This document shows, one piece after another, positions 11,314 to 23,152 of a DNA stretch of 35,024 nt. The stretch is from the NCBI GenBank assembly GCA_019308995.1, contig JAFDHD010000036.1, positions 1-35,024 on the forward strand, in the 5' to 3' direction. How positions within the stretch are numbered: the stretch's first letter is position 1; each line of letters starts with the position of its first letter. Origin of the DNA: Deltaproteobacteria bacterium. Its GTDB lineage: Bacteria > Desulfobacterota > Desulfarculia > Adiutricales > JAFDHD01. Position numbers and translations under genes: made by a program. A model generated the notes under the pieces. That model searched no databases and had not been told where the DNA came from. It was given only the letters and a program-made list of their open reading frames with translations.

Positions 11314-12906
11314 ATGATTAAAAAAGTATTAAAACCGTCTTATCTGTCAATCCTGATTATCATCTTTTGTATGGGGATTTTTATCTCTCCATCCAAGACC
11401 TGGGCCGTGAAAAAAGGAGGAGTATTGAAGATCGGTTTTGGGATGACTGCCGTGAAACTGGACCCGCATGCTTCTTCTGGATCGGGTGACGTCTACATTA
11501 TGGCTCATATCTACGAAAGGCTACTTACTTTCAAACTTGATGAAAAAACGAAAAAACCTGTGGTTATGCCTTCTCTGGCTGCCAAATGGGAAGTTACACC
11601 GAATAAAATGGCTTGGATTTTCTATCTCAGAAAAGATGTAAAATTTACCGATGGGACGCCCTTTAATGCTGAGGCGGTCAAGTTCAATATTGATCGTTTG
11701 CTCGGACCGCCGCCCCTGGCAAATGCCAGAAATTATGGCTTTTTAATAAAAAATACAGAAGTGATTGATGAATACACGGTTAAAGTAAATCTAAAAATTC
11801 CGGCTGTCCCGGTAGAATCATACTTTGTCCAGAGCTATATTGGCATGATTAGCCCAGCCGCCGTCAAGAAGTGGGGGGACAAAATCGGCACTCATCCGGT
11901 TGGTACGGGGCCCTATAAATTAAAGCAATGGGTACACGGAGAAAAGGCCGTCCTGGAAGCGAACACCAAGCACTGGAAGGGGAGGCCGAATTTAGACCAG
12001 GTCGAGTTTAGATTTATCCCTGAAAGCGCCTCCAGGTTAAACATGCTCAAGACCGGCCAAATTGACCTGGCCTTTAACCTCGATGTGCCAGACCTTGTAA
12101 GGGCGCAAAAAGAAGGGAAGTTTGACGTCATCGAATGGCCCACCACAGAACTTCTTTACCTCGTTCTGAACAACCTGGCAAAACCAACTAATGAAACGGC
12201 GGTTCGCCAGGCCATTAAGCTGGCCATCAATCGCAAGGGGATCGTGGAAAAGATATTGCAGGGCCATGCCACCATCGCCAACACCTATATATCGCCAATC
12301 TGCATGGGAAGCATCCCCAGCGATCCTATGATCTTCGATCCGGAGAAGGCCAGGAAGGTATTGGCTGAGGCGGGCTGGGTGGATAGCGACAAAGATGGAA
12401 TCCGAGAAAAGGGCGCGGATAAGCTTCGCTTAAAAATTCGCTATCCGAGCGGCCGCTATCCCATGTGTGACGAAATGGTGGCGGTTATTCAAAATCAGTT
12501 GAGCAATGTTGGCTTTAAGTGCGAGTCGGAAAAAATGGGCTTTGGGGCCTGGATCACCGCCCTGGTTCAGCCTCCAGATAAATCCACCGGGGATGCCTTT
12601 ATCGTTTCCTGGCCTTCCAAGGAAGACCCGCAATGGGCCCTCTTCGCCATGCAGCCATATAGCCCCTTAAGCTATTACCAGAATAAAACGGTGGCCCAGC
12701 TGTCCATGGCGCAGCTGGTTGAATGGGACCAGGCGAAACGGATAGATTTTCTTAAAAAGATCCAAATGATCGCGGAGAAGGAAGCCTTTGGGATAAATAT
12801 ATTATTTATGAATTACAATATTGTTAAAAATAAAAACGTTCACGTAAAACCAACTTATGTCCCGGTTTCAGACACGTTCAATGTCTATAACGCCTGGGTT
12901 GAATAA
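11314..12906 (+). CDS. ABC transporter solute-binding protein (SBP_bac_5, Dpp/Opp type)
   Basis: Periplasmic binding protein (530 aa) of the peptide/nickel/organic-acid class. It begins with a Sec signal peptide (MIKK, hydrophobic core about 10-27, probable cleavage after TWA near residue 31). Family signatures follow: KIGFGMTAVKLDPHASSG, the WIFYLRKDVKFTDGTPFNAEAV segment near 105-125, and HPVGTGPYKL near 195-205. AAGGAGG at 11298-11304 gives a strong start. Ligand cannot be read from sequence. The permeases lie 2.4 kb downstream, with a CoA-transferase and an amidohydrolase-fold gene in between. This favours an organic acid or amide over a simple peptide. No ATPase gene lies in the cluster. 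Confidence 0.92.
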   Translation: MIKKVLKPSYLSILIIIFCMGIFISPSKTWAVKKGGVLKIGFGMTAVKLDPHASSGSGDVYIMAHIYERLLTFKLDEKTKKPVVMPSLAAKWEVTPNKMAWIFYLRKDVKFTDGTPFNAEAVKFNIDRLLGPPPLANARNYGFLIKNTEVIDEYTVKVNLKIPAVPVESYFVQSYIGMISPAAVKKWGDKIGTHPVGTGPYKLKQWVHGEKAVLEANTKHWKGRPNLDQVEFRFIPESASRLNMLKTGQIDLAFNLDVPDLVRAQKEGKFDVIEWPTTELLYLVLNNLAKPTNETAVRQAIKLAINRKGIVEKILQGHATIANTYISPICMGSIPSDPMIFDPEKARKVLAEAGWVDSDKDGIREKGADKLRLKIRYPSGRYPMCDEMVAVIQNQLSNVGFKCESEKMGFGAWITALVQPPDKSTGDAFIVSWPSKEDPQWALFAMQPYSPLSYYQNKTVAQLSMAQLVEWDQAKRIDFLKKIQMIAEKEAFGINILFMNYNIVKNKNVHVKPTYVPVSDTFNVYNAWVE

Positions 12907-12911
12907 ACCGG

Positions 12912-12945
12912 TAAGAGGGGCTAGACCGAAAAAAGGCCCCTCTTA
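12912..12945 (+). terminator. Intercistronic hairpin after the solute-binding-protein gene
   Basis: TAAGAGGGGC (12912-12921) pairs perfectly with GCCCCTCTTA (12936-12945) across a 14-nt loop, 6 nt after the binding-protein stop. The U-run after it is poor, so readthrough is expected. Such hairpins behind binding-protein genes commonly stabilise the upstream mRNA or attenuate transcription, giving excess binding protein over permease. Here that role is inference. Confidence 0.6.
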
Positions 12946-13014
12946 AACCTTTATGCTAATGCAGGGTTCAGGAGAGATGAACTCAGTGATAAAGCCGGCG
13001 CATCGGAGGCTAAT

Positions 13015-14196
13015 ATGCTCAAGAACATAAGGGTGCTTGATTTCAGCCGCGTATTATCCGGACCCTTTTGCACGCGTATGCTGGCTGACCTTGGGGCTGA
13101 AGTCATAAAAGCCGAGTCGTTGAACGGAGACCTCATGCGGCAGGCGCCACCCTTCAAAGGCAAATTTGCAAGCTATTTTACACAGTTTAATTTGGGCAAG
13201 AAAAGTATCAGCGTCAATCTTCAACATGAAAAAGGAATAGATTTAATCAAGAAGCTCGCAGCCAAATGCGATGTCGTTATTGAAAATTTTCGTCCGGGAC
13301 TCATGACGGAAATGGGATTGGGATATCCTGTCTTGAGGGCCATCAATCCAGATATTATTTACTGCTCCATCTCAGGGTTCGGCCAAACAGGGCCGGAAGC
13401 AAAACGACCCGCCTATACGGATATTATTGAAGCCTATAGCGGTCTGGATTATGCCGCCGGCGAGATGTACGGCTCAGACGGGACGCCGCCTGGATTTCCT
13501 TTCTCCCTGGGAGACACCTATGCTTCCCTCAATGCAACGATCGCGATCCTGGCAGCCCTGTATCATCGTGAGTTAACCGGTGAAGGTCAGCTTATTGATA
13601 TTTCCATGCTGGACTGTATTCTGGCGGCCAATGACTCCACGCTTCAAAAATATATCTTCTCCGACGGTGAGGATGACATTCCCACTCTAGTCTTCAGACC
13701 ACCCCTGAAAATGAAGGATGGCTACATGGCGGCCTCGATTGCCTTGGGTTTTGAGAGGACTGTCCAGGCCATTGGTCGGCCTGAACTCCTTGAGGACGAA
13801 TGTTTCAAGACTCTCGAGGCCAGGAGCAAGCATTTTGATATCTTCATCCAGGTGGTCAAGGAATGGGCCCAGGAAAAAACGATCGAGGAGGCAAGCGAAA
13901 TTTTTAATAAATTCGATATTCCTTACAGTAAGGTCAATTCAACCGCGGAAATCATCAACAGCCCTATAATCCGCGAACGGAAGATGTTAGTTGATGTTGA
14001 ACTCCCAGGTGTTGGCAGCCTGCCCATAGTGAATACCCCTTTTAAATTCTTCAAAAACGCAAGCCAACCACAGGGTCCTCCTCCCCTCCTGGGTGGACAC
14101 AATCAGGAGGTCTTCGGTGAACTTCTGGGATTGTCTGAGAGTGAGCTTGACCAACTCACCCGTGAGGGAGTCATTTCCCAGGAAGAAGCCCCGTAA
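13015..14196 (+). CDS. CaiB/BaiF family (family III) CoA-transferase
   Basis: Moves CoA from one acyl-CoA to a carboxylic acid through an aspartyl-CoA thioester intermediate. Family features over 393 aa: VLDFSRVLSGPFCTRMLADLGAEVIK at the start, IENFRPGLMTEMGLG near 90-103, SGFGQTGP near 120-127, and the LGD motif whose Asp167 aligns with the catalytic Asp169 of formyl-CoA transferase. PLLGGHNQEV-type closing sequence is near the C-terminus. GGAGG at 13005-13009, 5 nt before the ATG. It follows the binding-protein gene and precedes the amidohydrolase-fold gene, suggesting that it activates the imported acid. Substrate cannot be fixed from sequence. Confidence 0.93.
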   Translation: MLKNIRVLDFSRVLSGPFCTRMLADLGAEVIKAESLNGDLMRQAPPFKGKFASYFTQFNLGKKSISVNLQHEKGIDLIKKLAAKCDVVIENFRPGLMTEMGLGYPVLRAINPDIIYCSISGFGQTGPEAKRPAYTDIIEAYSGLDYAAGEMYGSDGTPPGFPFSLGDTYASLNATIAILAALYHRELTGEGQLIDISMLDCILAANDSTLQKYIFSDGEDDIPTLVFRPPLKMKDGYMAASIALGFERTVQAIGRPELLEDECFKTLEARSKHFDIFIQVVKEWAQEKTIEEASEIFNKFDIPYSKVNSTAEIINSPIIRERKMLVDVELPGVGSLPIVNTPFKFFKNASQPQGPPPLLGGHNQEVFGELLGLSESELDQLTREGVISQEEAP

Positions 14197-14207
14197 TACG
14201 GGCTTTT
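14186..14207 (+). terminator. Weak terminator-like hairpin overlapping the CoA-transferase stop
   Basis: AAGCCC (14186-14191) pairs with GGGCTT (14200-14205), extended by GT/AC around an AAT loop with one bulged C, and followed by TTTT (14204-14207). The TAA stop lies inside the hairpin. The short U tract suggests partial termination or attenuation before the amidohydrolase gene. Confidence 0.4.
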
Positions 14208-14277
14208 GCCTTGTGTGCAAGGTTTGTAATGCTGATGCCTCAACATGCATCTAAGCCTAGCTGAAGGAGATAATAAT

Positions 14278-15222
14278 ATGGTCATTGATATCGAATGTGA
14301 TATCCCTACCCGGGAAGTCTATCAGGCGGACCTGGATTCCTTGGAGCAGAGTGGAGACCAGGGCATGGCCAATTATATTAATATCTTTGGCCCTAAATGG
14401 GCCTCTGACATAGGGATGAGCCCTGCTGAATTTGAAGAAGCTAAGGAAACAATAGGGCCGGTAAAATTAAGGAGAATGATTACCGAGAAAGCCATGGAAA
14501 AGGCCATGACCGAGGAAGAATTTATCCGCATGCTGGATGATGCGGGCGTGACCTATGCTTGCATCGGAACAGGTCGGTTTGCCTCATTTGAACATACGGC
14601 CAGGCTGGCTGAGAAACATAGAGACAAATTAATACCATGGTGCAGAATAAGCCCTCACCTTGGAATGGCTGGCGTTAGAAAGCTGGAGTATTGTGTAAAG
14701 GAGCTTGGATTTAAAGGCTTAGAAGTATCTACCTTTAGAGAAAGACTATATGCCAATGATAAAAAATATTATCCCCTCTATGCTAAATGCGTTGAGATGA
14801 ATATTCCGATCAGGGTCTATACAACTATGAATTATGCTACAGATCGGGCTATGGATCTTGGACGGCCGCTTTATCTTGATGAGGTTGCGCGTGATTTTCC
14901 TGAGTTACCCATCATTGCAGGCTTGGGCGGGTGGCCCTGGGTGCCTGAGCTGGTTGGATTGGCGCGAAGACATACTAATTTATACATTGATTTTGCCGCG
15001 CATCGCCCGAAATATATTGCCAAACCTGGAAGCGGGTTCGAGATGCTGCTTCAGTTCGGGAATACGCTTCTTCAAGATCGAATTCTCTTCGCCAGTTCAT
15101 GGATGACGCTTGGGCTCCCTTTAAAGCAGATCATCCAGGAGACCAAGGAGCTTCCTTTGAAAGATTCGGTCAAACCAAAGTGGCTGTATGAAAACGCTGC
15201 TCGGATTTTGAAGCTTGGCTAA
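14278..15222 (+). CDS. Amidohydrolase-2-fold protein lacking the metal ligands
   Basis: 314 aa. The fold is recognisable: GFKGLEVSTF (144-153), PLYAKCVEMNIPIRV (166-180), DFPELPIIAGLGGWPW (206-221), TNLYIDFA, then DRILFASSW (267-275) and ENAARIL near the C-terminus. Relatives in PF04909 (ACMSD and aromatic decarboxylases, lactonases) have HxH, two single His and one Asp binding a metal. Here those positions read IECD (5-8), VYTT (180-183), IAGLGG (213-218) and FASSW (271-275), so every ligand is replaced. Start at the ATG with AAGGAGA 7 nt upstream; an earlier in-frame ATG at 14245 has no site. It lies in the CoA-transferase/transporter unit. It is likely metal-independent or non-catalytic. 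Confidence 0.85.
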   Translation: MVIDIECDIPTREVYQADLDSLEQSGDQGMANYINIFGPKWASDIGMSPAEFEEAKETIGPVKLRRMITEKAMEKAMTEEEFIRMLDDAGVTYACIGTGRFASFEHTARLAEKHRDKLIPWCRISPHLGMAGVRKLEYCVKELGFKGLEVSTFRERLYANDKKYYPLYAKCVEMNIPIRVYTTMNYATDRAMDLGRPLYLDEVARDFPELPIIAGLGGWPWVPELVGLARRHTNLYIDFAAHRPKYIAKPGSGFEMLLQFGNTLLQDRILFASSWMTLGLPLKQIIQETKELPLKDSVKPKWLYENAARILKLG

Positions 15223-15265
15223 AGATTACGCCCATTTGCTATAGTTACTTATTTCATTATACAAT

Positions 15266-16186
15266 ATGCTCGCTTACATCGTCAGACGGATTTTACTGCT
15301 GATTCCTGCCTTACTTGCCATTACCCTGGTGGCCTTTCTTATTCTTCAGTTGATACCGGGTGATCCGGCCAGAGTCATAGTCGGTATTGACGCAGATGAA
15401 AAACAATTAGAAGCAATCCGCCATCAATTAGGACTTGATAAACCTATTATCGTTCAATATGGAATTTTTTTAAAAAGCATAGTCAGGTTTAATTTTGGCC
15501 AATCCATCAGATCACAGGATGATGTTATAAATCAAATCCTGCCCAGGTTCAAAAACACTCTGCTGCTTGCCTTGGTCAGCATCACCATATCCGTTATTGT
15601 TGGTGTACTGGCGGGTGTTATTGCCTCAACCAAACAAAACACATCCTTAGATTATGCGATTACCAGTTTAGTTCTTTTAGGCATTTCCGCGCCAACTTTT
15701 TGGATCGGACTCCTTCTAATTTTGTTCTTTAGTGTTTTTGCCGGCCTGTTTCCAGCTGGAGGGATCGAGGGACTTAAGAGTATTATTTTACCGGCTATAA
15801 CCCTGGCCGCCCCATCAGCAGCAGTGACAGCAAGGATGACGCGCTCCTCCATGCTGGAAGTTCTTCGCATGGATTACATCAAGACGGCCAGAGCCAAAGG
15901 TCAGAAGGAAAGTAGAATTGTTTTCAAGCATGCCCTTAAGAACGCTCTCCTGCCAACCATTACTATCGTGGGTATTCAATTTGGTTATTTAATGGGTGGT
16001 TCGGTTCTGGTTGAGACAGTTTTTAGCTGGCCAGGTTTAGGCTGGTTAATCGTGGATGCCATTTTTGCCAAAGATTATCCTGTGGTTCAAGCATGCGTTA
16101 TCTTTTTTGCCTTCAGTTTCATTCTGGTAAATCTGGTGGTGGATATACTTTATGGCTACATTAACCCCAGAGTGACTTATGATTAA
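15266..16186 (+). CDS. ABC transporter permease (DppB/OppB type)
   Basis: Inner-membrane subunit of a peptide/opine/nickel-class importer. The 306 aa begin with the typical MLAYIVRRILLLIPALLAIT helix and QLIPGDPARVI periplasmic motif, and contain about six membrane spans. The EAA-loop RMDYIKTARAKGQKESRIVFKHALKNALLP (about 195-225) contacts the ATPase. FGYLMGGSVLVETVFSWPGLG is the family signature that follows. No Shine-Dalgarno is visible in the AT-rich 20 nt before the ATG, although the start fits the family, so translation may be weak. It is followed after 20 nt by the partner permease. Confidence 0.95.
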   Translation: MLAYIVRRILLLIPALLAITLVAFLILQLIPGDPARVIVGIDADEKQLEAIRHQLGLDKPIIVQYGIFLKSIVRFNFGQSIRSQDDVINQILPRFKNTLLLALVSITISVIVGVLAGVIASTKQNTSLDYAITSLVLLGISAPTFWIGLLLILFFSVFAGLFPAGGIEGLKSIILPAITLAAPSAAVTARMTRSSMLEVLRMDYIKTARAKGQKESRIVFKHALKNALLPTITIVGIQFGYLMGGSVLVETVFSWPGLGWLIVDAIFAKDYPVVQACVIFFAFSFILVNLVVDILYGYINPRVTYD

Positions 16187-16206
16187 CTGACTTGCATGTT
16201 TCATAA

Positions 16207-17100
16207 ATGACGAACTCTTTTAAGGTTACTATGAACTCGGGCATTAATGATGAAAAGAGAAAAACCAATTTGAAGCTTGCCTGGCTTCGGCTTAAGCGCA
16301 ACAGGATAGCTCTGACCGGGATGGTAATCATTTTATTGTTTTTTTTAACTGGCATATTTGCCTCTCATTTAGCCCCTCATGATCCTTTCAAACAAGACCT
16401 TGATAAGATCAGGACAGGTTTGAGTTTTGAACACCCGCTGGGCTGCGATCAGGTGGGAAGAGATGTATTGTCGAGAATTATTTATGGAGCCTTGATAACT
16501 ATCAAAATAGTTATAATCTCTGTGGCCATAGGCCTATTTATAGGTTCCACTATTGGGATAATTGGTGGCTATTACGGCCGGAAGGTGGATATGGTCGTCA
16601 TTTTTTTAGCTGACCTTCTCCTAGCCTTCCCAGGATTGATTTTGGCCATTGCGATCATAGCAGCGGCAGGAACAGGGTTAACTGGCGTGATTCTGGCCAT
16701 TGGTCTTTCATCCATTCCACAATTTATCCGGGTCACGAGAAGCGTCGTCATTGGTGAGAAAGAAAGCGATTATGTCCTTGCGGCCAGGGCCATAGGAGAA
16801 GGCGATCTTAACATTATGGTTCGTTACATATTACCTAATTGCCTCGCCCCTATTGTGGTGCTGGTGATGCTCCGGATAGCGATCATCATTCTTATTGCGT
16901 CCGGTTTGAGTTTTCTGGGTTTGGGGGTTCAACCTCCCACACCGGAATGGGGCGCTATGCTGGCCGAAGGACGGGCCTACTTACAGATCGCGCCTCACAT
17001 CGTGATATTTCCCGGACTGGCGATCATGATTGTCGTGCTGGCCTTCAACCTTTTCGGAGACGGTCTGCGGGATGCCTTGGACCCAAGGATGAAGATGTAA
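16207..17100 (+). CDS. ABC transporter permease (DppC/OppC type)
   Basis: Second membrane subunit of the Dpp-type importer, 297 aa. Features include the LAWLRLKRNRIALTGM first helix with a preceding cytoplasmic tail, LAPHDPFKQD and HPLGCDQVGRDVLSRIIYGA signatures, and five or six membrane spans. The EAA loop (YVLAARAIGEGDLNIMVRYILPN, near 190-212) and SFLGLGVQPPTPEWGAML near the C-terminus are also present. An internal ATG at 16231 has AAGG 5 nt upstream and is a credible alternative start giving 289 aa. The gene ends the plus unit 49 nt from the convergent lyase gene. No DppD/DppF-like ATPase follows. Confidence 0.95.
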   Translation: MTNSFKVTMNSGINDEKRKTNLKLAWLRLKRNRIALTGMVIILLFFLTGIFASHLAPHDPFKQDLDKIRTGLSFEHPLGCDQVGRDVLSRIIYGALITIKIVIISVAIGLFIGSTIGIIGGYYGRKVDMVVIFLADLLLAFPGLILAIAIIAAAGTGLTGVILAIGLSSIPQFIRVTRSVVIGEKESDYVLAARAIGEGDLNIMVRYILPNCLAPIVVLVMLRIAIIILIASGLSFLGLGVQPPTPEWGAMLAEGRAYLQIAPHIVIFPGLAIMIVVLAFNLFGDGLRDALDPRMKM

Positions 17101-17149: not shown

Positions 17150-18037
17150 CTAGACATCCAGACCGATTGAACCGGCGAATTCAAGCATTTCCCGTGCGGT
17201 TTTGGCCATGGCGTAATCAATCATATCTCCTTCATAAACAACAGCTGCTGTTCCTTTTTTCTCTGCCTCTTCCAAAGCCTTGATCAATCCCTTGTAAAAA
17301 GCGATTTCATCAGCGGTCGGAGAAAAGACCTTGTTAACCACCGGAACGTGTGTGGGATGAATGACCGTTTGGCCTCTAAACCCAAGCTGTCGGTTCAAAC
17401 GTGCATCACGCTCAAGCCCTTCCAAATCCTTGATATCCCACCAGGAGCTGATGGTGGGATACTGTATCCCTGCGGCCCGGGCATCAAGCACCGCTTTTGA
17501 TCGGAGATAGAGGGTTTCTTTGCCTTGCTTAGACCATATATAACCGACAGATCGGCTGGCATCACCGCCGGGACCGGCGGCCAGAGAAAGGCCCTGAATC
17601 CGCGGAAAGGAGATAGCTATATTGTAAGCGTTTCGCATCGCTTTAGCCGTTTCCAGGGCCAAGGCTGTTTTGATGCTCCCAATCTCAATATTGTTACGCC
17701 TCTCCAGATGAGTAAGCAATACATCCAGTTCTCTCATATCCTCAACAATCTCCACCTTGGGTAATGATACACTTTCCAGCTCTGGACACATCACACCCTC
17801 AAGATCATCAAGAGTCATGCCCGTGGCCAGGCCGTTGATCCTGACCGCACAGGCTTGCCCGGCTTGCTTTAAAAATTTCAGCGCCTCTTTAACCAGAGGC
17901 CGGGCTAATGTCTTTTCGTGATCCGGGACCGAATCCTCCAGGTCAAGGATAAGCGAGTCCGCGCCGTAATTAACCGCCTTTTCCATCCAGGCAGGCTTAT
18001 TACCAGGAACGAATAACGATGACCGCCTGAGTCTCAT
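17150..18037 (-). CDS. CitE-like C-C lyase (HpcH/HpaI aldolase family)
   Basis: TIM-barrel enzyme of the citrate-lyase-beta / malyl-CoA / citramalyl-CoA lyase group (295 aa), which cleaves or forms 3-hydroxy-acyl-CoA bonds. Signatures: RRSSLFVPGNKPAWMEKA at the start, ILDLEDSVP near 30-37, AVRINGL with Arg67, the acidic metal ligand Glu129 in ALALETA, and Asp159 in GPGGDASRSVG. LGFRGQTVIHPTHVPVVN lies near 220-240. The full set suggests an active lyase. AGGAGA 8 nt before the ATG. It is last in a minus unit behind the acyl-CoA dehydrogenase and hydratase, which would fit the final cleavage step. Malyl-, methylmalyl- or citramalyl-CoA are candidate substrates by family, not proven. Confidence 0.9.
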   Translation of the reverse strand: MRLRRSSLFVPGNKPAWMEKAVNYGADSLILDLEDSVPDHEKTLARPLVKEALKFLKQAGQACAVRINGLATGMTLDDLEGVMCPELESVSLPKVEIVEDMRELDVLLTHLERRNNIEIGSIKTALALETAKAMRNAYNIAISFPRIQGLSLAAGPGGDASRSVGYIWSKQGKETLYLRSKAVLDARAAGIQYPTISSWWDIKDLEGLERDARLNRQLGFRGQTVIHPTHVPVVNKVFSPTADEIAFYKGLIKALEEAEKKGTAAVVYEGDMIDYAMAKTAREMLEFAGSIGLDV

Positions 18038-18064
18038 GGTTCATTCTCCTATTTAAAATAAAAA

Positions 18065-19228
18065 TTAGGTTAAAGTTCTCGCGATAACCATCCGGTGCAC
18101 CTCTGAGGGCCCTTCACCGATTCGACGGGTCCGCAATTCGCGATACCAGCGTTCAAGCGGCAGCTCTTTGGCTAATCCCATCCCCCCATGTATCTGCATG
18201 GCTCGATCAACAACGTTCAGAGCTATTTCACTGGCCATAAGTTTGGCCATGGACGATTCGATCTGAAACGGTTTATTTTCAGCTCTTAATCGAGCCGCAT
18301 TATAAACGACCAATCTGGCAGCATGGACTTCCAGAGCAGAATCAGCCAGCATCCATTGGATAGCTTGCCTTTGTGAAAGCGGCTTGCCAAACGTTTCCCG
18401 GATCTTGGCGTATTCAGAGGCCATCTCCAGTGATCTTTGCGCAATGCCCACACATTGTGCCGCATATGGAATACGATTCTGAGTAAGCAGAGATTTCAAA
18501 AGCTCGAAACCATTACCACGCCCGCCCAGCACCTGCTCTTCTGGTACCAAGCAATCTTCAAAAATAAGCTCATATGGAGCCTCAGGCCGAATAACGGGAA
18601 TGGCATTGCCGATGTGGTAACCCGGGGTTCCCTTCTCTACAATAAAACAGGTGATTTCACCTCGCGTCCCAATAGGGCTGTCGTCGGTTCGAACGAAAAC
18701 CGTTACGAAATCGGCTTTTTTAGCATAAGAAATCCAAATCTTGGTGCCATTGATTACCCATCCCTTTGATGTCTTGACCGCACGGGTTCTAATGGCTCTG
18801 GCCGGATCTGATCCACCGGAAGGTTCCGTAATGGCAAAACAGCCGCGAATCTCACCCCAAACCCAAGGCAGGAGATATTTCTCTTTTTGCTTTTCAGTGC
18901 CTCCATACAGGAGAGGATTAATCTCACGGCCAAAGGCGCCGCCGCCGGCATTATACAATCCCTGCCGGTGCTGACTAAGCTGCTCCATAAAAACGGTGTT
19001 TGAAAAAAAATCCAGACCCGCACCCCCATATGCCTCAGGCACCGACGGCTGATACATCCCCATGGCCCGGGTCTTTTCCTGCAGGCGAGCCACATCTTCC
19101 TCAGGAAATTCTACAGCGTCCGGATCCAGGTTGTGTTCGACCGGGATAATCTCGTTTTTTACAAACTTCTGCACCGTCTCTGTGAGCAACTTAAGCTCGT
19201 CGGAAAACCCATAATCGTGCTCATGCAT
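18065..19228 (-). CDS. Acyl-CoA dehydrogenase
   Basis: FAD-dependent alpha,beta-dehydrogenase of acyl-CoA, passing electrons to electron-transfer flavoprotein. Standard domain order: N-terminal helices, a middle beta domain with CFAITEPSGGSDPA, and a C-terminal helical domain with QRQAIQWMLAD, MQIHGGMG and RRIGEGPSEVHRMVIART. The Glu in GEGPSE aligns with the catalytic base in the usual YEGT position. The start is set at 19228, where AGGAGG lies 8 nt upstream and MHEHDYGFSDELK begins as in the family (387 aa). The frame extends 36 codons further to 19336, but that extension is unlike the family. Substrate cannot be told from sequence; position suggests a dicarboxylyl- or branched acyl-CoA. 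Confidence 0.93.
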   Translation of the reverse strand: MHEHDYGFSDELKLLTETVQKFVKNEIIPVEHNLDPDAVEFPEEDVARLQEKTRAMGMYQPSVPEAYGGAGLDFFSNTVFMEQLSQHRQGLYNAGGGAFGREINPLLYGGTEKQKEKYLLPWVWGEIRGCFAITEPSGGSDPARAIRTRAVKTSKGWVINGTKIWISYAKKADFVTVFVRTDDSPIGTRGEITCFIVEKGTPGYHIGNAIPVIRPEAPYELIFEDCLVPEEQVLGGRGNGFELLKSLLTQNRIPYAAQCVGIAQRSLEMASEYAKIRETFGKPLSQRQAIQWMLADSALEVHAARLVVYNAARLRAENKPFQIESSMAKLMASEIALNVVDRAMQIHGGMGLAKELPLERWYRELRTRRIGEGPSEVHRMVIARTLT

Positions 19229-19353
19229 GATCAAAACCTCCTGTTTATGAACAATCGCGTCTATCTTTTCCAAGATACGAGTTGGGCGGCAGGATCGAAT
19301 GAGGCCCTCTGATGAATCAAGAAGGTGACCTGCCAATCAAGGAACAGATAAAA

Positions 19354-20127
19354 TCATCTGCCTTTATAATTAGGCTTTCTCTTTTCGGCAAACGCCCTCG
19401 GTCCTTCTTGAGCGTCTTCGGTGGTGCGGAGAAATGCCTGAAACGACTGTTCCAGCCGGAGACCTTGTTCTAGAGGCAGACTCTGGGATCTGATGGCCAA
19501 TTCTTTGATAGCACGGAGGGCCAAGGGTCCGCATTCACACAATCTCCTGGCATAATCCTGTGCCGCTGGCAGAAGATCTTTCATCGGAACGACCTTGTTG
19601 ATCAGACCGTAAGTCAGGGCCTCTTGAGAAGTCAGACGTCGGCCGAGCAACAACATTTCCATGGCAATGGGGAAAGGAAGGTTTCGTAAGGCCCTCTGGG
19701 TTCCCCCATTTCCTGGCAGGATACCTCTCTTCACCTCGGATATTTCAAATACGGCGTGTTCGGCCGCAATCCGGATATCGGTTGCAAACAGAAGCGTCAT
19801 GCCACCAGCCAGACAGTACCCGTTCACTGCGGCTATCACGGGCTTCCACACCTCCAGGCCCCGATTGAGCAGCATATCCTTCTGGGTCAGCCAAAAATCA
19901 GCCTTTTCCTGCTCTCGAGGTATGGCCGTTTTGAGATCCGCGCCCGCGGTGAATGCCTTCTCGCCCGCTCCGGTAATAATGGCAACCCAAACATCGGGGT
20001 CATCGCGAACGTTTATCCAAGCCTTTGAAAGCAGTTCATAGACCTCCGGGTCCATAGCGTTCATGGCTTCAGGCCGGTTGATGGTGATATACGCCACTTT
20101 ATCTTTCACTTCATAGATAAGTTTCAT
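19354..20127 (-). CDS. Enoyl-CoA hydratase/isomerase (crotonase) family protein
   Basis: Crotonase-fold CoA enzyme, 257 aa, first gene of the minus unit. Oxyanion-hole elements are present (AFTAGADLK near 59-67; CLAGGM near 105-110), as is ILPGNGGTQRALR (136-148). Of the two catalytic glutamates of classical hydratase (rat Glu144 and Glu164), only the second is kept (Glu131 in ISEVKRG). The first position is Thr111 (AGGMTL in place of GGCEL), exactly 20 residues earlier. The reaction may therefore be an isomerisation, a different hydration or another crotonase chemistry. ATG with an AGG site about 9 nt upstream and a promoter at 20144-20172. Confidence 0.92.
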   Translation of the reverse strand: MKLIYEVKDKVAYITINRPEAMNAMDPEVYELLSKAWINVRDDPDVWVAIITGAGEKAFTAGADLKTAIPREQEKADFWLTQKDMLLNRGLEVWKPVIAAVNGYCLAGGMTLLFATDIRIAAEHAVFEISEVKRGILPGNGGTQRALRNLPFPIAMEMLLLGRRLTSQEALTYGLINKVVPMKDLLPAAQDYARRLCECGPLALRAIKELAIRSQSLPLEQGLRLEQSFQAFLRTTEDAQEGPRAFAEKRKPNYKGR

Positions 20128-21112: not shown

Positions 21113-23152
21113 ATGAGTAACAGAAAAAAAGCCATGCTTATCGGTGTTGACGCAGTAATCTACCCGATGGTGCTCAGGTTCATTGAACAAGGACATCTGC
21201 CCAACCTGAAACGCCTTATCAATGAGGGCGCTGGCAGCGAGGCTGCTTGTTGCCTACCGCCATACACTCCAACTAACTGGGCTACCCTTTCCACCGGCTC
21301 GTGGCCGGATACCCACGGCGCCGGGAATTGGGTTGACTACAAGGTGAGCGACCTTCCGGGAGGCCCTGCCATGTCCACCTTTGATTCCCGCACCATCACT
21401 GCTGAGACGATCTGGGAGGCAGCGGAGCGCGCGGGACTGAAGAGCCTCTGTGCAGCCTACCCTTCGGCCTTCCCCAGGCGTACCAAAAATGGCTATGTCA
21501 TTGCCCCCCTGCACCGCGGGCTGGTGACGATGCTCATGATTCGAGGCAACGAGTACGCCACAGCCCCCTCTATGCGTGGCGGGGTGAAGATTGAGCTTCA
21601 ACCGGCTCAGGACTGGCGCGGAGCGCCTGAAGGTTCACTGGAGGCGGTCCTGGTGGTGCAGGAGACCCCTGGCACAGAGAGTGTTGTGTCTCGTGTGGGC
21701 GCGACAGAAGATGGAGCTGACTTCCAGGGCGAGGCTGTCGCCCCTGATGCAGCGGCGCCTGCGGCCCAGGGCGTCCAGTTTGACCTGCTGCTTATCAACT
21801 CCAAAGGACAGGGCTATGACCGAGTTCTTTTGTGTGAGAACAAGGATGCTGAAAACCCCGTGGCTGAACTCAAGCAGGGCGAATGGACTCCTTGGATATT
21901 TCGTGAATACAATACCGCTCAACGTGAAGGTCGGATGGCAGGGTTGCTGACAGTGGCCTTTTCCAAAACTAAGGTGGACCTTGAGGGTAAACGGGAAGGC
22001 TCCACGCGGTTTAAACTGCTTCACCTTTCCCCTGATGGCAAAGACGTTCGCCTGGTTCGTTCCGAAGTCTATCCCACCACAAATTTCACCGACCCCGCCT
22101 CGCTAAGTGAAGAACTCATCCGCGAAGTGGGGCCTTACTTTGAGCACTCGGTAGGCCGTCTCACTGAAGATGTGATTGAAAGAGACAAGGAGATACTGGA
22201 CACCATACTCGATGATATGCGTTATCAAGCATTATGGCACTCTAAGGCGGCCAAATACGTGATGGAACACTATGGTTGGGACATCTATTACCTCCACTGG
22301 CACTGGCCCGATACCGTAGCCCATGAGACAATGCGCGTCATTGAGCCTGAAGGGCCGGGTTACGACCCTGCCAGGGCGCCTGCTTATATGGATGTCATCC
22401 GGCGTTCCTACCAGATAATGGATGAGATGGTGGGCGGTTTCATGGAATTGGCCGACAAGGATACCTACATCGTGGTAGTAGCCGATCATGGCTGCACCCC
22501 CGATTACCGGGTGGCCGATGTATTTCGCCTGCTGGCCCAGAAGGGTCTCAGTGTCTTTAGCGGTGACTCTTTTGCTGTCAGCGCTCTTGACCTCTCAAGG
22601 TCGCGAGCATACCGCAACGGCGCCTGCCAGATAACGGTCAACCTTAAGGGGCGGAATCCTCATGGTATTGTTGAGCCTGAGGATTATGAGAAGGTTCAGG
22701 AGGAGATTATTGACGCCCTCCAGACGTGGCGTGACCCTGATAATGGCAAGCTGATCATCTGCTTTGCCTTTAAAAAAAGAGATGCTCAACTTTTCGGTTA
22801 TTGGGGTGAAAGAACAGGCGATGTGATATACCTCTTCAACCATGGCTATTGGTGGGGGGATCCAACTATTGCACCTATTTTCGCTGCAAATCCCGGTGCT
22901 ACCGTGGTTGACGCCCCGCCTCTTTCAGCCCATCATGGGCCCAACCTTCCTACCGACAGGACCAGCATGACCTCAAATCTGGCCACCTTCATTATCAGGG
23001 GGCCTGGTATCAAGGCTGGCTATTCACGCGACCCGGAGCGACGAGGCTTTGTGCGACTGATGGATGTGGTACCGACCCTGAGTCACCTCCTGGGTTTCCA
23101 GCCGCCTCAGGAGTGTGAGGGAACGGTGCTTTGGGATCACTTTGAGGACTAG
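21113..23152 (+). CDS. Alkaline-phosphatase-superfamily phosphodiesterase/nucleotide pyrophosphatase-like protein
   Basis: 679-aa metal-dependent hydrolase of the type I phosphodiesterase (PF01663) group. Two-zinc-site residues are visible: MLIGVDA (Asp near 10), PPYTPTNWATLSTGSWP with the nucleophile Thr near 50, HWHWPDTVAHE near 390 (Asp and His), VVVADHGC near 460 (Asp-His) and the late AHHGPN His near 610. A 150-residue insertion of beta character (about 150-310) separates the nucleophile from the later ligands and may set substrate range. No signal peptide, so probably cytoplasmic. AAGGAGG 10 nt before the ATG. It is divergent from the headless regulator. GC-rich codon use compared with its AT-rich flanks may indicate transfer. 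Natural substrate unknown. Confidence 0.88.
   Translation: MSNRKKAMLIGVDAVIYPMVLRFIEQGHLPNLKRLINEGAGSEAACCLPPYTPTNWATLSTGSWPDTHGAGNWVDYKVSDLPGGPAMSTFDSRTITAETIWEAAERAGLKSLCAAYPSAFPRRTKNGYVIAPLHRGLVTMLMIRGNEYATAPSMRGGVKIELQPAQDWRGAPEGSLEAVLVVQETPGTESVVSRVGATEDGADFQGEAVAPDAAAPAAQGVQFDLLLINSKGQGYDRVLLCENKDAENPVAELKQGEWTPWIFREYNTAQREGRMAGLLTVAFSKTKVDLEGKREGSTRFKLLHLSPDGKDVRLVRSEVYPTTNFTDPASLSEELIREVGPYFEHSVGRLTEDVIERDKEILDTILDDMRYQALWHSKAAKYVMEHYGWDIYYLHWHWPDTVAHETMRVIEPEGPGYDPARAPAYMDVIRRSYQIMDEMVGGFMELADKDTYIVVVADHGCTPDYRVADVFRLLAQKGLSVFSGDSFAVSALDLSRSRAYRNGACQITVNLKGRNPHGIVEPEDYEKVQEEIIDALQTWRDPDNGKLIICFAFKKRDAQLFGYWGERTGDVIYLFNHGYWWGDPTIAPIFAANPGATVVDAPPLSAHHGPNLPTDRTSMTSNLATFIIRGPGIKAGYSRDPERRGFVRLMDVVPTLSHLLGFQPPQECEGTVLWDHFED

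Follow-up and report, generated by a model that had tools for sequence, protein, structure and literature searches.

A PF04909-fold protein with all five metal-ligand positions replaced, encoded in a CoA-activation and transport unit of a deltaproteobacterium

Results

The locus and its gene

The window (the whole 35,024-nucleotide stretch of contig JAFDHD010000036.1 analysed here, from a deltaproteobacterial assembly) contains a row of transporter and CoA-activation genes, in the middle of which lies the gene under study:

11314..12906, + strand: SBP_bac_5 oligopeptide/dipeptide-type solute-binding protein (PF00496, E 1.6e-88)
13015..14196, + strand: CaiB/BaiF family III CoA-transferase of 393 aa, directly upstream of the gene under study (PF02515, E 1.8e-98)
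14264..14269, + strand: AAGGAG, Shine-Dalgarno-like site, 8 nt before the ATG at 14278 (from the sequence)
14278..15222, + strand: ligand-less PF04909 (Amidohydro_2) fold protein of 314 aa (PF04909, E 4.6e-31; AlphaFold2 pLDDT 94.9; best Foldseek match 3irs)
15266..16186, + strand: OppB/DppB-type permease, 43 bp downstream of the gene under study (PF00528, PF19300)
16207..17100, + strand: OppC/DppC-type permease (PF00528, PF12911)

These five genes, in the order SBP, CaiB, ligand-less gene, OppB and OppC, all lie on the + strand, separated by 20-108 bp, and are presumably co-transcribed. No gene for an OppD/OppF ATPase was found in the unit (11314-17100), and the contig (C36) gave no match to the Opp/Dpp ATPase C-terminal domain. 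Convergent to the unit, on the - strand at 17150-20127, is a row encoding a CitE/HpcH-type lyase, an acyl-CoA dehydrogenase and an enoyl-CoA hydratase; further along, at 21113-23152 (+), a 679-aa protein has a weak partial match to TIGR02335 (phosphonoacetate hydrolase), far below the cut-off.

The open reading frame at 14278-15222 is intact and real. The program-made list has it as 14245-15222; we adopted the ATG at 14278 as start because it follows the AAGGAG at 14264-14269 and agrees with the starts of homologues (MIIDIECD...). In public plasmid records, proteins of this branch are named 'amidohydrolase' or 'amidohydrolase family protein'.

The same genome (G000, 3.78 Mb) encodes a paralogue with 49% identity on another contig (C16), in a row made up of OppA, the paralogue itself, three CaiB, type I CoA-transferase A and B, OppB, OppC and two ATPases. 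The window CaiB groups in a fully supported clade with the three gammaproteobacterial CaiB next to ligand-less genes that entered the tree. Sister to this clade, out of 30 CaiB matches of the genome, stands a CaiB from the paralogous unit. Since the genome has 30 CaiB (PF02515) and 34 Opp/Dpp ATPase C-terminal (PF08352) matches, neighbours of these kinds are nothing unusual there, and one case taken alone counts for less. It also has one BamA-type ring-opening hydrolase (C30:15116-16201), and this, with the abundance of CaiB and Opp genes, suggests an acid- and aromatic-degrading specialist.

Fold and family

The 314-aa product matches PF04909 with 109.1 bits (cut-off 26.4, E 4.6e-31), its sole Pfam match, and no NCBIfam model matches it. 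An AlphaFold2 model computed from an alignment of 31 homologues is confident (pLDDT 94.9, pTM 0.92), and Foldseek against the PDB ranked 3irs (BB4693) first, followed by LigJ, LigY, 5-carboxyvanillate decarboxylase (4qrn), ACMSD and resorcylate decarboxylase, the best matches all being PF04909-type barrels. Because the model is confident and its matches are of this kind, the predicted structure is a distorted (beta/alpha)8 amidohydrolase-2 barrel, and the protein is, as judged from profile and model, a PF04909 (amidohydrolase-2/ACMSD-like) member by descent. A family match above the cut-off and a predicted amidohydrolase barrel are thus what came of the HMM alignment and structure model that the first-pass annotation had proposed. 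Its claim of a PF04909 scaffold is supported; the profile alignment covers residues 101-313 only, and the equivalence of strand 1 rests on MAFFT alignments.

All five metal-ligand columns are replaced

Homologues gathered from public genomes, from the same genome, from its relatives and from plasmids were aligned (MAFFT) with canonical PF04909 members, 'canonical' being a group of 22 with four or five ligands, of which 19 have all five. Strand 1 is anchored by I3-D4, shared with the canonical members, D4 being 100% conserved in all groups. Canonical controls from the same and related genomes have HxH/H/H/D at exactly the columns where the window protein has other residues:

14293..14301, + strand: codons for E6-C7-D8 in place of the strand-1 HxH (alignment columns)
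14818..14820, + strand: codon for Y181 in place of the strand-5 His (Y in 21/23 of the clade described below, H in 22/22 canonical)
14923..14925, + strand: codon for L216 in place of the strand-6 His, just before the invariant G218-W-P-W221 (L or C in 23/23 of the clade, H in 22/22 canonical)
15001..15006, + strand: codons for H242-R243 after strand 7 (each 21/23 in the clade, unconserved in canonical members)
15097..15099, + strand: codon for S274 in place of the strand-8 Asp (alignment columns; D in 22/22 canonical)

The alignment therefore lacks, for this protein, every residue by which a metal-dependent amidohydrolase is recognised (strand-1 HxH, strand-5 and strand-6 His, strand-8 Asp), as the first-pass annotation had correctly read; the replacing residues read E6/D8, Y181, L216 and S274. 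The fold appears to have been kept by descent, but the defining site of the metal-dependent type is missing from the sequence, and from this loss of ligands we infer a protein without metal.

A ligand-less clade and the order of loss

In a tree of 83 proteins, built with the five ligand columns excluded, all five ligands are absent from 23 of the 23 proteins of one clade (SH-aLRT 97), which spans Desulfobacterota, gamma- and alphaproteobacteria, Chloroflexota and SAR324. Its neighbours in the tree retain one to three ligands and mostly lack the HxH, and the canonical proteins lie outside. The fewest changes on the tree are two for the first His of the HxH, three for the second, three for the strand-5 His, two for the strand-6 His and seven for the strand-8 Asp. 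In the sampled tree the simplest story would be loss of the HxH first, repeated loss of the strand-8 Asp, and, at the base of the clade, loss of the strand-5 and strand-6 His as the final step; with midpoint rooting, several long branches and a quick tree, this order is one interpretation and is not proven. The five-to-zero series of ligands offers a natural system for how a fold loses its metal yet keeps or changes its chemistry, and the ligand pattern of the whole branch contradicts the metal hydrolase that the 'amidohydrolase' labels suggest. A literature search on this branch, on BB4693 and on PF04909 proteins of CoA pathways that lack a metal site gave no specific result.

Whether the replaced positions are conserved among homologues, a check suggested at the outset, was answered in the affirmative across the 23-protein clade: Y181, Y186, H242 and R243 are each conserved in 21 members, D8 in 18, and E6 and R154 in 16, while in a subclade of ten E6, D8, R123, R154 and R243 are all invariant (10/10). 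In the secondary structure of the model the conserved replacing positions sit at or just past the C-terminal strand ends, where barrels carry their active sites. Because these positions are conserved, the site at the barrel mouth was rebuilt rather than eroded, with E6, D8, R154, Y181, Y186, H242 and R243 beside the invariant GGWPW segment.

Nonsynonymous differences to the orthologues amount to 0.15-0.27 per site and synonymous sites are saturated, hence no dN/dS ratio is given. The exception is the orthologue in G001, a congener and the sole further genome from this genus in the comparison; it has two frameshifts and GLGDWPW for GLGGWPW (L085:6461-7399, C327) and may be a pseudogene or an assembly error; a second paralogue in that genome (L086) is intact. 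With 23 of 23 proteins lacking all five ligands, the replacements conserved and nonsynonymous differences low against saturated synonymous sites, the loss of ligands is, on these comparisons, best read as neither chance nor decay. That the gene is maintained, with an intact frame and a good ribosome binding site, had been proposed earlier, and the AAGGAG, purifying selection and the clade-wide pattern all agree with it.

CoA-activating neighbours across relatives

A CoA activator lies on the same strand within 500 bp in 10 of the 23 clade members, 10 of the 38 partly depleted relatives and one of the 22 canonical proteins (Fisher p 0.004 for clade against canonical, an optimistic value to be taken as an indication and not an exact probability, since the rows are related and the flanks vary). 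The activators of the clade belong to several families. They are CaiB in the window and in L008-L011 and L084, with a type I CoA-transferase further along L084; AMP-forming enzymes, within 150 bp, in L020, L021 and L023; and ADP-forming enzymes in L018 and in Bosea and Rhizobium plasmid operons. In four gammaproteobacterial relatives the CaiB is directly upstream, within 3-27 bp as placed by tblastn. On the Bosea and Rhizobium plasmids the ligand-less gene is followed by a complete Opp/Dpp transporter and by the ADP-forming ligase, 5.5 kb away in the same gene row. In the partly depleted relatives the activators also include a type I CoA-transferase and a protein of the acetyl-CoA hydrolase/transferase family. 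No same-strand activator within 4 kb was found in nine of the 23 clade members, including the closest relatives L006, L007 and L012, some of these loci being short. In the two closest relatives a protein with a lactate-racemase N-terminal domain (PF09861, LarA-type) is encoded upstream, in the place of CaiB (L006:2583-3854, L007:6099-7430).

The setting in a CoA-activation and transport unit, first noticed for the window, holds also for the paralogue and many relatives. The swapping of the activator family across the clade is a stronger argument than any single neighbour. Since the neighbouring activators come from unrelated families, a partner specific to one protein is unlikely, and the earlier suggestion of a structural partner of the CoA-transferase loses ground, the activator often being an AMP- or ADP-forming synthetase and not CaiB; a better fit is a protein that converts or binds what the activators have in common as product, be it the acid or its CoA ester.

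Discussion

Proposed function and alternatives

What the neighbours have in common is an acid and its CoA thioester, and for this reason, together with the precedent of CouO and HpeF described below, we favour a metal-independent enzyme that acts on the CoA thioester of an imported acid, within a catabolic transport and activation unit; on the sequence evidence this may well be the function, at about an even chance. The Opp-type transporter would import the acid, the neighbouring CaiB CoA-transferase would convert it to the CoA thioester, and the ligand-less protein would then act on the thioester by hydrolysis, by retro-Claisen or other C-C cleavage, or by isomerisation. Acid-base chemistry would proceed without metal, with conserved arginines holding an anionic group. 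Catalysis itself, the type of reaction, and the thioester over the free acid as substrate are the conjectural parts of this scheme. Counting against it are the nine clade members in which no nearby activator was found, the abundance of CaiB and Opp genes in this genome, the missing ATPase genes of the window's unit and the broken G001 orthologue.

Instead, and again without metal, the protein might use the free acid as imported, or a precursor in the form of a lactone, an amide or a peptide-like compound, ahead of its activation with CoA. Transporter genes do adjoin the ligand-less gene, and peptidases or amidases are encoded nearby in some relatives (M19 in L009, M42 in L044, S15 in L024, amidase in L131 and L136), but a CoA activator is what was most often found close by, and the sole experimental precedent found for such a pairing, CouO/HpeF, acts after activation, so we consider action before activation unlikely. 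A pseudoenzyme without catalysis, serving to bind acids or CoA esters or to stabilise the CoA-activating enzyme, would account for the loss of every metal ligand and for the CaiB of L008-L010, which form one clade with the window CaiB and abut the ligand-less gene by few bases or overlap it; it is rather unlikely, however, given the unrelated enzyme families found elsewhere in the place of CaiB and polar strand-end positions conserved beyond the expected needs of a scaffold. We regard as improbable a metalloenzyme with a different, rebuilt metal site made of, for example, E6, D8 and H242: these residues are placed after strands 1 and 7 and are well conserved (E6 and D8 10/10 in the subclade, H242 21/23 in the clade), but E6 is R or A in seven and D8 varies in five of the 23 clade members, and metal ligands do not usually sit on strand 7. 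A copy in decay that has survived by chance, to which only the two frameshifts (perhaps an assembly error) in the G001 orthologue would point, is highly improbable against an intact frame with a ribosome binding site, a pattern fixed in 23 proteins of several phyla, and purifying selection relative to the other orthologues.

We tentatively suggest, with somewhat less than even confidence, a widespread, undescribed PF04909 branch that carries out metal-free chemistry on acyl-CoA thioesters. It would do so through a rebuilt site of Asp, Tyr, His and Arg and would be a module that can be exchanged between import-and-activation units, whose activators come from several unrelated families. Relatives of the branch that keep one to three of the five ligands would then be living intermediates in the dismantling of the metal site.

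Comparison with known systems

BB4693 from Bordetella bronchiseptica (PDB 3irs, 3k4w) is closest among solved structures both in sequence (profile E 4e-43) and in fold, and no function for it was found in the literature. Like the window protein, it shows neither a strand-5 His nor a strand-8 Asp in the alignment and carries the WPWV.E segment; unlike it, BB4693 retains the strand-6 His (SSHGNWPW). The two share ~22% identity in the fold alignment, and the first strand of BB4693 falls outside the alignments. LigJ, LigY, 5-carboxyvanillate decarboxylase, ACMSD and gamma-resorcylate decarboxylase share the barrel of the window protein, but these PF04909 enzymes hold a catalytic metal by the residues that it lacks. 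LigI (2-pyrone-4,6-dicarboxylate lactonase) is an amidohydrolase-superfamily enzyme reported to work without metal; it belongs to another family than the window protein and keeps several canonical residues.

For action on a CoA thioester the likeness is to CouO and its homologue HpeF, amidohydrolase-superfamily enzymes on acyl-CoA that are each paired with an AMP-forming synthetase (PMC4737184, PMC9618137). These Rhodococcus beta-ketoacyl-CoA hydrolases have an aromatic acyl-CoA substrate and a gene beside that for a CoA synthetase, and serve here as a functional precedent. ThnN and BamU, of the anaerobic naphthalene and benzoate pathways, are amidohydrolase-superfamily proteins of unresolved function in gene clusters for CoA thioesters; ThnN is encoded near a CoA-transferase and acyl-CoA dehydrogenases, and the review that describes them expects a metal mechanism (PMC12016498). 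Identity of the window protein with BamU or ThnN was considered and rejected: in Desulfobacterota relatives, the PF04909 genes within ~10 kb of BamA-type genes (L140, L141, L142, L147 and L150) keep the HxH and are closest to the canonical L098, and it is these that are candidates for BamU-like proteins. The neighbour pattern of the ligand-less clade points to acyl-CoA metabolism, and the idea of an enzyme for the activated acid can be put to the test on those amidohydrolase-type genes of anaerobic aromatic degradation that still lack an explanation.
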